DNA of 64,000 nt. It comes from Strigops habroptila. Lineage: Eukaryota > Chordata > Aves > Psittaciformes > Psittacidae. The notes beneath the pieces are model-generated. The model had not been told where the DNA came from and ran no database searches. It was given only the letters and a program-made list of their open reading frames with translations. The position numbers and the translations under genes were made by a program. Where the stretch lies: assembly GCF_004027225.2 (NCBI RefSeq), contig NC_044296.2, positions 4,831,943-4,895,942 of the forward strand, given 5' to 3'. Below are positions 24,670 through 42,900 of the stretch, in pieces (the stretch's first letter is position 1; the number at the start of each line of letters is the position of its first letter).

Positions 24670-27600
24670 ATGGCATCAGAGAAGACCACAAAAAAGGATG
24701 TGCTGAAGTCTGAGGAACAGCAGCAAGCGGTAGGTGCCAGGGCAGATAGAACTCTAACATGCAACAGTTAAACTCCCTGCTGAGATACACGAGTGAGCTC
24801 ATGTCTGTCCGCACCTCAAAACCAGGCTGGGAGTAACAGAAAGATTAACCATATGGAGCTGTGGCTAAATCTAAACTCACTTGATAGAGAAGCTCAAGAG
24901 AACTTCAGGGCTGGCTCAAGTAATTCTGAAACATGAGCTCTTACAGGTCCTGTTTCCACATCTGGGTTTGGTGCTGAAACTCAGAGTGACTCAGAATTCA
25001 TGGGCCCGGAGCCTGAACTTTTAATCCTGGCTTCTCACTGACGTGCTGTCAGTTTTTGGATGAGTCTCTTCAACTCTGAGTTTAAGAAGGATGAGGAGAT
25101 GAACTGGATATCTCCTTAGGACCCTTCTGCATAGGCACATGGCTTGTATTCACTCACAGCTTGAGGCTGGGGTCTCTAATGTCATTTATTTCTCTTGGGT
25201 TTTAGAGTGCTGTCAATCGAGTAACCAGCTTGCCCTTGTTCAACTCTGCATTTAACCTGGTCTCATCTGCCTACAACTACACCAAGGAGACACATCCTTG
25301 CCTCAGTGGTGTCTGCAGCGTGGCTGAGACCGTGGCTGCTGTTGCAGTAGGTAGCGTGGTTGGTGGGGCACAGCCCATCCTGAACCAGCTTGAGCCCCAA
25401 AGTAAGTGAAGAGTGACCCTTTCTACACAGACAAGTAGGTGGGGAGGGGACCTTCATGTGCCTGTTGGGTGATATCCATCTCCTATAGCACATTGTTCTA
25501 GTTAATTGTAGCACTGAGTCTTCCACTCGGCAGCTCCCAGCTGCTCAATGGACACAACATTGTTAACAGCCGAAACAAAGATTGGCCTCTTGTCTGTGCT
25601 TCCTTTAAATCACCAACCAAAACCTCCTTGCTCTTTATCTCTCTAAGCTATGAGCATCCCAACTGGTAGTAGCAGTGTCTGCCTTGGATATAGCTCAGTC
25701 TGTCCCATCCCAGCACTTCTCAACCCTTTAAGACTGATTGTCCTACCCACCCAGGGCAAGTATTACACTCCAGCTGGAGCAGTGTGCTGCCAATAGCTAT
25801 GAGAAGGCAAAATGGAGGCTATTTAAAGCTGCCTAATTGTAGGGTTTGTTCACTCTTCCAACAAGCCACCCCACCCCGGAAAGATGATCTGAGGGGGAGC
25901 TTGCTTTCATGAGTATCCAGTGTTGGCCATTGTAAGGTCAAAAGCTCCTCTCCCAACTGAAGAATAAACCAATATCTGTTGTATTTTCTAGTTGCACTTG
26001 TAAATGAATATGCCTGTAAAGGACTGGATCAGCTGGAGGAGAACTTGCCTTTTCTTCAACAGCCAGCAGATAAGGTAAATGAAAGGCTTTTCCTTATGGG
26101 AAGCCATGACTTGTCTCTTGCTTGATGGAACTGTTATGGGTACAGAATATGGGGAAACAAACTTCAGCAGCACTGCTTTGTCAGCTCAGGCCCTGGGATG
26201 GGCTAGAGGAGGCACTGTGAACTGATGAAAGCTGGAGAGATGCCTTCAGCATGTCCGTGTAAATACAGTGTACAGACTTCCCCGCTCTCCCACAAGGCTG
26301 CAAGCACAATTTAGCTGTAGGGAAAAGCTACTACAGGGAGGGAAAACCTATTTCAGGGAAAAACAAAGTCACTTTCTCTGCCTCTCCCTGTTGTAGGTAA
26401 TCTCAGACACCAAGCAGCTGGTTGCCACCAAAGTGACATCTGCTATGGATGCTGCCTGCGAGGCAAAAGAAGCAATGGCCAATAAAGTGACTGAAGCTGT
26501 GGACCTCACTAAAAATGTTGTTGGGGACAGTGTCAAGCTGACCAGGTCAGTGGTCACCTCCACTATTAACAGTGCTGTGGAGGCTGCTCATGGTGCCAAG
26601 GACCTTGTGGCCAACAAGGTGACCGAAGCAGTGGACCTCACTAAACACATGGTGGAGGACAGCATTGGACAGACCAAGTCTGCTGTAGCTTCTACTATTG
26701 TCAATGCTGTGGAGGCTGCCCAGGGTGCCAAGGACCTTGTGACCAACAAGGTGACTGAAGCAGTGGAGGCTGCCCAGGGTGCCAAGGACCTTGTGACCAA
26801 CAAAGTGACTGAAGCAGTGGAGGCTGCCCAGGGTGCCAAGGACCTTGTGACCAACAAGGTGACTGAAGCAGTGGAGGCTGCCCAGGGTGCCAAGGACCTT
26901 GTGACCAACAAAGTGACTGAAGCAGTGGAGGCTGCCCAGGGTGCCAAGGACCTTGTGACCAACAAGGTGACTGAAGCAGTGGACCTCAGTAAGCACATGG
27001 TGGAGGACAGCATTGGACAGACCAAGTCTGCCGTTGCTTCTACTATTGTCAATGCTGTGGAGGCTGCCCAGGGTGCCAAGGACCTTGTGACTAACAAGGT
27101 GACAGAGGCAGTGGACTTCAGTAAACATATTGTGGAAGACAGTGTTGGACGGACCAAATCTGCTGTTGCTTCCACTATTGTCAATGCTGTGGAGGCTGCC
27201 CAGGGTGCCAAGGACCTTGTGACCAACAAGGTGACTGAAGCAGTGGACCTCAGTAAACACATGGTGGAGGACAGCATTGGACAGACCAAGTCTGCTGTAG
27301 CTTCTACTATTACTGCTGCTGTGGAGGCTGCCCAGGGTGCCAAGGACCTTGTGACCAACAAGGTGACTGAAGCCATGGACCTAACCAAAGAGGCTGTTCA
27401 AGATGGTGTTGAGAAGACCAAATCAGTGGTCACTTCCACAGTCGGTACAGCTCTGGATGCTGCATATGGCACCATTACTAACAAAATAAATACAGCCCTG
27501 GAGCAGGGCAGAGAGGCTCTCCAGGAGGGTGTGGAAATGACCAACTCAGTGGTGACCAACAGCATAAGCAAAGCCAAGGCAGTGAGCCAAGCAGTGGGAG

Positions 27601-29236
27601 GTGGTGTGGAAGCTGTCCTGGGTATATCAGAAGACCTGGTGGATCACTACCTCCCCATGACAGAGGAGGAACTAGGTGAGAAAATGCTTGGTTGGCGGTT
27701 GTAAATGCAAGGCCTTGAGAGGCTGACTAGAGAGCAGCTGACACTGCAAGGCTCATCTTCTGAAGTAGCCAGGTAGCTCTGAGTTTGTCACCAATGCTGG
27801 GACAGAGCAAGCATTTGCTAGCTGGTCCTTGCCCATCAGCCTCAAGGCAAATACACACGTGGGTACATGCTTCAACCTATCTGTCAAGTCTGCTTATCTG
27901 AAGAGAACACGTTGAGCAGGGACCAACCTACCTTTAACATCTGAGCAACTACAAACCTCGCCTGTTTGCACAGCAAGCTTCAGCCTTCGTGATTTTCAAT
28001 GGGTGATCTTCCCTCTTCCTCCCCTTCCAGCTGGGCGAGCGGAGCACAGCTACAGCTCTCTTCTTGTTTCCTCCAGGTAAACTGGCCACCTCTGAGGGAT
28101 TTGGGATGGCTTCTGTGGAGGAGCAGAGACAGAACAAGAGTTACTTTGTGCGCCTGGGTTCCCTGTCTAACAAAGTGCGGCGCCGAGCCTACCACCTCTC
28201 CCTGGCCAAACTGCAGCGTGTCAGGCAAAGCACCCAGGACACTCTCTCACGGCTCCAGCTCACAATAAAACTGGTACAACCCTGCTCTTCCCTCTTTCCT
28301 CCTGTCTGTAGCCTTCCTGCCCTACTCTCCAGCTGGAAGCTCTTCCTCCATCCTGTACCAGCTGTATGTCACCTTGGATCCCTCCCTGGGAGGGAAGCAC
28401 TGGTGCTGCTCTGATTGTGTGTGCTTGCAATCCAGGCTCTTCCTCTCACTTTCTCCCCTCAGATTGAATCTGTGAAAGGGGAGATTGGCCAGAAGCTTCT
28501 GGACGCGCAGGAGAAGCTCTATCGGCTGTGGGTGGACTGGAGCCTGACCCAACCCAAAGGAAACCAAGTCAAAACTGCCTCCCAAGTAGAGGTATCCCTA
28601 GAAGGGTGTATTTAACCAGGCCTCTTGATGCCTCTCACCTGCTCTAGTAACTGAGCTCTATCTCTTTCCCATCAGGTAGAGTCACGGACTCTAGCTATGC
28701 TGCATATCATCACCCAGCAGCTACAACTTGTTTATGAGAACCTGAAAGCCAGCATCCAAGGCCTCCCCAGCAACATCCAAGAAGCTGTGTATCAGGCCAC
28801 TCGAAACATCCACAAGCTCCACAGATCTTTTTCCAGTGCTGTGTCTTTCCAGGACCTCTCCAGCACCACCCTGACCCAGAGCCAGGACCGTGTGGCAGAA
28901 GCCCGGAGGTCCCTAGATGAACTCTTTGAGTATGTAACTCAGCACACTCCTCTAAACTGGGTTGTGGGGCCCTTCAGGGCAATAGCTAATGTGTCACAGG
29001 GGAGCAGAAAGCAGAAGAAGAAGGATTTGGCAACTCCAATAAAATCACCTGTGCTGGAAAAGGCCACATCACCAAAGGAGGGGGCAAAGACACCTGAAGA
29101 ACCAAAGGGAGCACATGAGATCCTGGGGGAAGGGTGTGAGGTGCTAGAGAAGCTGGAAGAGAAGGCAGAGAAAGACACAGAGGTGGCACTGGCTGCAAAG
29201 GAGGTAAAAACTAAAGCACCAGAGGAGGATCTCTGA
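24670..29236 (+). CDS. PLIN3: Perilipin-3 with a large internal repeat expansion
   Basis: Lipid-droplet coat and retromer-linked protein of the PAT family. Coding exons: 24670-24729, 25206-25401, 25992-26074, 26397-27675, 28077-28273, 28463-28585 and 28676-29236. Phases agree and the sum is 2,499 nt, or 832 residues plus stop. PAT domain about 18-115 ([28 protein letters not shown]). Residues about 118-520 are amphipathic 11-mer-type repeats, mostly in 44-residue units, including five 18-residue units at 218-307. The C-terminal helical bundle spans about 541-746 ([34 protein letters not shown]), followed by an 86-residue Lys/Glu-rich tail. Human PLIN3 is 434 aa; the repeats resemble PLIN4, but position beside TICAM1 and the C-terminal sequence favour PLIN3. 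The exon at 28463 could instead end at 28591, adding a Val-Glu. Confidence 0.93.
26709..26978 (+). repeat. Five tandem 54-bp units in PLIN3 exon 5
   Basis: Five in-frame 54-bp units encode [18 protein letters not shown]. They are identical except for the Lys codon before VTEA, which alternates AAG, AAA, AAG, AAA, AAG. The alternation suggests that a 108-bp dimer was duplicated. Near-identity implies very recent expansion or gene conversion. The surrounding repeats are 44 residues (four 11-mers). Confidence 0.97.
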
Positions 29237-42560: not shown

Positions 42561-42567
42561 GGGTCAC

Positions 42568-42900
42568 CTGCCCCTGGACCGTGCGCCCGTGCCCCTGCCC
42601 GTGCCCCTGCCCTGCTCCTGCCGCTGCCCCTGCTTACCCTGCCCTGCTCCCCTGCTCCTGCCCCTACTCCTGCCCCCAATCCCTGCCCCTGCTCCTGCCC
42701 TAACCCTCCGCTCCTGCCCCTGCTCCTGCCCTACCCCTGCCCCTAACCCTGCCTGCCCTGCCTGCCCCTGCTCCTGCCCCTAACCCTGCCCCTAACCCTG
42801 CCCCTGCCCTGCCCTGCCCCTAATCCCTGCCCTTGCCCCTGCTCCTGCCCTGCTCCTGCCCCTGCCCCTAACCCTGTCCCTGCCCCTGCTCCTGCCTGCA
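42568..42900. repeat. CCTGCC/CCCTAA minisatellite upstream of FEM1A
   Basis: About 330 bp of degenerate units built from CCCCTGC, GCTCCTGC and CCCCTAACCCTG. The telomere hexamer CCCTAA occurs six times (for example at 42698-42703), but not in uninterrupted tandem. The plus strand is almost pure C/T/A, so the complement is G-rich and G-quadruplex prone. It directly abuts the FEM1A CpG island. Confidence 0.9.

Follow-up and report, generated by a model that had tools for sequence, protein, structure and literature searches.

Coding tandem repeats in the amphipathic helices of perilipins are best known from PLIN4. In human PLIN4, where the repeated unit is a 33-mer (the exon 3 VNTR), the 11-mer region is listed as 968 amino acids long (PMC5889406). 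The length of this region is polymorphic: alleles of 29 or 31 units are reported, with 40 units in a myopathy family (PMC7360652) and a single carrier of 43 units among 1,019 people sequenced (PMC12350158). According to PMC5889406, a longer PLIN4 helix is better targeted to lipid droplets, and a 33-mer made net negative becomes cytosolic and loses droplet targeting, a defect rescued by raised hydrophobicity; positive charge in the helix is described there as helpful, not essential. The 11-mer region of human PLIN3 comprises 90 residues (114–204 of 434; PMC5889406, Table 1). Human PLIN3 11-mers are reported to be disordered without membranes and helical with them, and to bind triolein droplets in a length-dependent manner, while the 11-mer region alone (114–204) is cytoplasmic in cells (PMC10238389). 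In yeast, the 11-mer regions of PLIN1–3 are reported as sufficient for droplet targeting (PMC4807253). Among the titles and abstract openings of the open-licence literature on avian or expanded PLIN3 repeats, no paper describing the repeat considered below was found, nor were any 18-residue perilipin or apolipoprotein repeats found in the open-licence literature.

The repeat is located in a perilipin gene of Strigops habroptila within a 64,000-nucleotide stretch of DNA (the window), to which all coordinates refer unless another locus is named. The coding part of the gene (24670..29236, plus strand) consists of seven exons encoding 834 amino acids, with GT-AG borders at all six introns and the reading frame kept throughout. 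Coding exons 1–4 lie at 24670-24729, 25206-25401, 25992-26074, and 26397-27675, and coding exons 5–7 at 28077-28273, 28463-28591, and 28676-29236. All four exon regions scanned, of the seven, match the Pfam Perilipin family PF03036; if a non-coding exon 1 is assumed in the numbering, the E-values are 8e-19 for exon 3, 2.3e-33 for exon 5, 5.4e-18 for a stretch of exon 6, and 1.6e-30 for exon 8. The repeat exon also gave a CaMKII_AD hit (29.6 bits against a cut-off of 22.1), which contains no single passing stretch and was dismissed as a repeat artefact; a PDB search with this exon found nothing even at an E-value limit of 1.

The C-terminal part of the protein (28077..29236, plus strand, including the tail that follows) aligns with 1SZI, the mannose-6-phosphate receptor binding protein 1, which we take to be mouse TIP47/PLIN3, with a score of 206 bits over 233 residues. 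Two perilipin paralogues from the same genome reach 190 and 146 bits with approximate exon borders; the comparison covers these three proteins of one genome. The left neighbour of the gene is UHRF1, including its ubiquitin-like exon, and the right neighbour is TICAM1, with the TRIF N-terminal domain and RHIM. An ankyrin-repeat ORF, presumably FEM1A, also lies to the right of PLIN3. If the human order is UHRF1–PLIN3–TICAM1–FEM1A, as we assume, then the perilipin gene occupies the same syntenic slot as mammalian PLIN3/TIP47. About 1 kb from the FEM1A-like ORF there is a CCTGCC-type tandem repeat of 330 bp with a higher-order period of 119 bp (42567-42896). The PF03036 matches support a perilipin. 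The assignment to PLIN3 in particular, already proposed in the initial annotation, is well supported by the C-terminus, which fits PLIN3/TIP47 best, and by the surrounding genes UHRF1, TICAM1, and FEM1A-like.

As in mammalian PLIN3/TIP47, the PAT, 11-mer, and C-terminal bundle regions follow one another in the same order. Unlike it, the S. habroptila protein carries an 86-residue charged tail after the bundle, and its 11-mer region comprises about 408 residues versus 90 in human (PMC5889406). The tail, encoded by the last exon downstream of the 1SZI-aligned part (28976-29233), is 41% charged.

The 11-mer repeat (amphipathic helix) region is encoded by a single long exon (26397..27675, plus strand; residues 114–540), which is organized as a chain of 44-residue units. 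Each unit splits into two halves, of 18 and 26 residues, both of which open with A-V-(E/D). One such unit (18+26 residues) occupies 26577..26708 on the plus strand, upstream of a shorter-period array; three more, starting at 26925, 27057, and 27189, lie downstream (26925..27320, plus strand), followed by a final recognisable unit (27321..27452, plus strand), whose 18-residue half is one base off the array unit and whose 26-residue half is diverged. The flanking units are therefore 132-bp repeats of 4 × 11 residues, in agreement with the initial annotation.

The array itself (26709..26978, plus strand; residues 218–307) comprises five 54-bp units of 18 amino acids each, arranged head-to-tail inside the 435-codon open frame of the perilipin exon, with starts at 26709, 26763, 26817, 26871, and 26925. 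Tandem Repeats Finder delimits it at 26709-26983, with a period of 54, 5.1 copies, 98% matches, no indels, and a score of 536. Base-by-base comparison showed that units 1, 3, and 5 are identical (unit A), while units 2 and 4 (unit B) deviate solely at base 42, where AAG is replaced by AAA; this change is silent, and the same 18-residue peptide is encoded by all five units. Both the alternating Lys codon of five near-identical units and the 108-bp dimer pattern that it implies had been pointed out earlier, and the A-B-A-B-A order on the plus strand confirms them. The 54-bp unit corresponds to the first 18 residues of PLIN3’s own 44-residue (4 × 11) repeat, the 26-residue half being absent four times at the array. 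Because unit 5 continues into the remainder of an ordinary 44-mer, the excess over a plain 44-mer chain amounts to four units, i.e., two 108-bp dimers (216 bp, 72 amino acids), which can be placed at 26709..26924 on the plus strand, although the choice of which four of the five units are extra is a convention. The array is a real coding repeat in PLIN3, kin to the known coding repeats of perilipin helices. A search of the bird’s own genome with the repeat gave at least four matches, and the four listed all lie within the PLIN3 repeat exon (26574-27379).

Two trivial origins of the array were rejected: chance is an implausible source of five 54-mers with one variable base among them, and a non-coding nature disagrees with the 435 open codons, the Perilipin matches, and the correct splice sites. 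Opposite the repeat exon, the minus strand carries two antisense open frames of 269 and 277 codons (26550-27397), which are probably a by-product of the repeated codons of the exon.

Nine 54-bp copies in the exon are comparable, namely the five of the array and those at 26577, 27057, 27189, and 27321. Unit A accounts for four of the nine (26709, 26817, 26925, and 27189), of which only the last, at 27189..27242 on the plus strand, lies outside the array, with 100% identity; unit B accounts for two. The remaining copies differ from unit A by one base (27321), three bases (27057), and four bases (26577). The copy at 26445 is a tenth and far older one, with 17–21 differences; it was excluded both from this count and from the substitution count. 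At the protein level, eight of the nine copies are identical, and the nine 18-residue halves contain seven distinct silent changes versus two replacements (crude N/S 0.094, Fisher p 0.004). For the 26-residue halves, four of six were used, the two diverged ones (26499 and 27375) being set aside, and nine silent and nine replacement changes were counted (ratio 0.29, p 0.036, likewise crude). These substitution counts indicate that the 18-residue sequence is maintained by selection on the protein, which explains part of the sameness of its copies.

The long helix region as a whole is a larger finding than the 54-bp array. Residues 114–521 form a stretch of 408 amino acids with no proline and two aromatic residues, a PLIN4-like 11-mer region, though shorter than that of PLIN4 itself. 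The array has a net charge of −5 and the 408 residues one of −15, while PLIN4 carries +1 per 33-mer (PMC5889406). As in human PLIN4, a module derived from the 11-mer is repeated in tandem and in frame within the amphipathic helix, which is long, nearly devoid of aromatic residues, and weak in hydrophobic moment (0.257 in PLIN4 (PMC5889406) versus 0.234 for the 44-mer here, values that come from different programs). The resemblance does not extend to the register. The 29 33-mers of human PLIN4 are described as having no insertions or deletions between them (PMC5889406), whereas PLIN3 here combines a 44-residue unit with an 18-residue derivative outside the 11-mer register. The strict indel-free register of a PLIN4-type giant helix is therefore lacking: four extra 18-residue steps shift it by 72 amino acids, or 6.5 × 11.

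The two paralogues mentioned above are arranged in tandem at L015:1011-3721 and L015:5261-7093 (C21, about 4996953-5003035), some 136 kb beyond the end of PLIN3. The pair is flanked by a semaphorin-6-like exon and a UBXN6-like exon, neither of which was recognised in a Pfam scan; we take the location to be the human PLIN5–PLIN4 slot. In the second paralogue (L015:5261-7093), the 11-mer exon encodes just about 100 residues. The first (L015:1011-3721) has an atypical 11-mer exon that is not confidently delimited, as well as extra exon-like fragments, one of them with a stop, and it may be decaying. A 292-bp stretch is 95.5% identical between the two genes, which suggests a recent duplication or conversion. 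Among the three perilipins examined, the long 11-mer region is demonstrated only for PLIN3. A 2017 study lists PLIN3 and PLIN5 in birds and assigns PLIN4 to mammals only (PMC5342826), so that two genes in the PLIN5–PLIN4 slot imply either that a gene was duplicated in this lineage or that this view has to be revised.

The helical geometry of the exon was followed by scanning 80–120 degrees per residue. Both flanks of the array peak at 98.1 degrees, as in a 3-11 helix. At 98.18 degrees the 44-mers have moments of 0.234–0.247, above those of shuffled sequences in all four cases tested (p 0.017–0.033), but in the consensus 44-mer the harmonic at 73.6 degrees is stronger (0.263) and that at 122.7 degrees equal, relative to the one at 98.2 (0.234). 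For the 18-mer, the moment at 100 degrees is 0.228, and 26% of permuted sequences do as well (p 0.26). The 80-degree harmonic of the 18-mer is its largest (0.31), and the array also peaks there in the scan. The amphipathic face attributed earlier to the 18-mer is thus weak when this unit is taken alone.

If a rigid 3-11 frame is imposed, the apolar direction runs from 273 degrees upstream through 221 in the extra units to 141 downstream, a turn of −132 degrees. With a piecewise twist (98.18 degrees in the flanks, 100 in the extra units), the three stretches face, in the same order, 273, 287, and 272 degrees, with a total moment of 0.241. Under a single twist along the whole length, the total moment is 0.122 at 98.18 degrees, 0.032 at 100, and 0.222 at the best uniform value of 98.8. 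Permuted 18-mers reach the piecewise-fit value in 6.3% of trials (p 0.063), which is marginal. Accordingly, the proposal in the initial annotation that 18 residues, making five turns, keep the apolar face in register holds in that the faces agree within 15 degrees, while its statistics remain marginal. The companion statement of a broken 11-mer phase is correct as far as the register goes, but in a 3-11 helix each 18-residue unit slips by just −33 degrees (+33 for 26 residues), and helices with 18 residues per five turns are an established type (PMC4786415). Coiled coils are described as accommodating register changes through this 18/5 periodicity (PMC4786415); in PLIN3 the contacted surface would be a lipid droplet, and the helix is a predicted one. 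An AlphaFold model of the repeat exon, built without an alignment, has a single helix over exon residues 96–204, with the array at 105–194, but its confidence is low (mean pLDDT 54), and it serves as a weak hint.

How the array arose is suggested by its junctions. The motif GC(A/T)GTGGA is common to all three kinds in the repeat exon: GCAGTGGAcctc (18 to 26), GCTGTGGAggct (26 to 18), and GCAGTGGAggct (18 to 18). An in-frame exchange between module starts is the simplest origin compatible with this sharing, and unequal exchange in frame is likely to have produced the array. The 18- and 26-residue halves have similar starts, between which unequal exchange or slippage would have multiplied the 18-residue half in tandem while omitting its 26-residue partner; a silent change would then have arisen in one unit, and the resulting 108-bp dimer, to which the alternating silent base points, would later have been duplicated. 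This order of events is one that we infer. The duplicated 108 bp show zero differences, so that at assumed rates of 1.5–2.5e-9 per site per year the last duplication would be younger than about 22–38 My if silent sites are considered, or than 6–9 My if all sites are free to change. Near-identical tandem units are a classic site of assembly error, and the true number of units might differ; we regard this as very improbable, since a single long read would span the 270-bp array, reading frame and splice sites are preserved, and an assembly of 1.149 Gb in 89 contigs suggests that long reads were used. The description of the array as freshly expanded fared less well: the copy at 27189, outside the array, matches unit A just as exactly, and the limit on age is a wide one; a recent expansion is possible. 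The same copy, along with the one-base difference at 27321, the small distances between the four 132-bp units (8–18 of 132 bases), and the strong constraint on the 18-mer protein sequence, would also fit an exon that evolves as a unit, with gene conversion and unequal exchange maintaining similarity among the 18-residue halves; the array itself may then be old but kept uniform. This explanation overlaps with the one preferred here, differing in age and process, and we consider it a minority possibility, though a serious one: the A-B-A-B-A pattern is most simply produced by a recent dimer duplication, while long-running conversion would be expected to fix or scramble it, and within the 132-bp units the 26-residue halves have diverged more than the 18-residue ones.

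A neutral variant of the exchange model deserves nearly even credence, falling slightly short of it. It shares the proposed origin and denies an effect: a length-tolerant region would have gained units by slippage without functional consequence, and the figure of 18 would reflect module spacing and not selection for five turns. The unit length is indeed explained by module starts 18 codons apart, and 18 and 26 residues are equally good in the 3-11 frame. With the length set by the module boundary and both lengths equally tolerable, the geometric fit is no evidence of selection for five turns. Among the 53 lengths from 8 to 60 residues, 14 fall within 33 degrees of register at 98.18 degrees and eight at 100 degrees, though just three (11, 18, and 29) do so at both twists. 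The constraint on the 18-mer protein sequence and the reported importance of 11-mer length for droplet binding (PMC5889406, PMC10238389) speak against a repeat without effect. We are reasonably confident in the overall reading of the array as a coding tandem repeat in the lipid-binding 11-mer region, born by exchange and compatible with the helix.

Under this reading of an exchange-born, helix-compatible repeat, 72 residues would have been added to the proline-free region, which, by analogy with the human 11-mers, is probably disordered in solution and helical on the droplet surface. The added piece would follow 18/5 in place of 11/3 geometry, a change that would cost the helix under 2 degrees of twist at each residue, and its apolar side could still face the droplet. 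The expected effect of the extra units would be a tighter or more extended coating of droplets; the net negative charge, considered together with the PLIN4 charge experiment, means that a gain in affinity cannot be assumed.

Two features make this PLIN3 of interest, its break with the 11-mer register and the total length of its helix region. It is conceivable, but on balance unlikely, that PLIN3 here has independently become a PLIN4-like giant helix, part of which was switched from 11/3 to 18/5 by a recent and possibly still variable coding repeat. If true, such a protein would test in nature whether a droplet coat depends on the 11-mer register or whether length and an unbroken apolar face are enough. 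A PLIN3 region more than four times the human length and made partly of 18-mers would allow helix length, 11-mer register, and charge to be separated in droplet binding. People differ in the length of the PLIN4 repeat, and one long allele is reported from a muscle-disease family (PMC7360652, PMC12350158); if the number of units varies between individuals in S. habroptila as well, the array would become a candidate source of inherited variation in fat storage.
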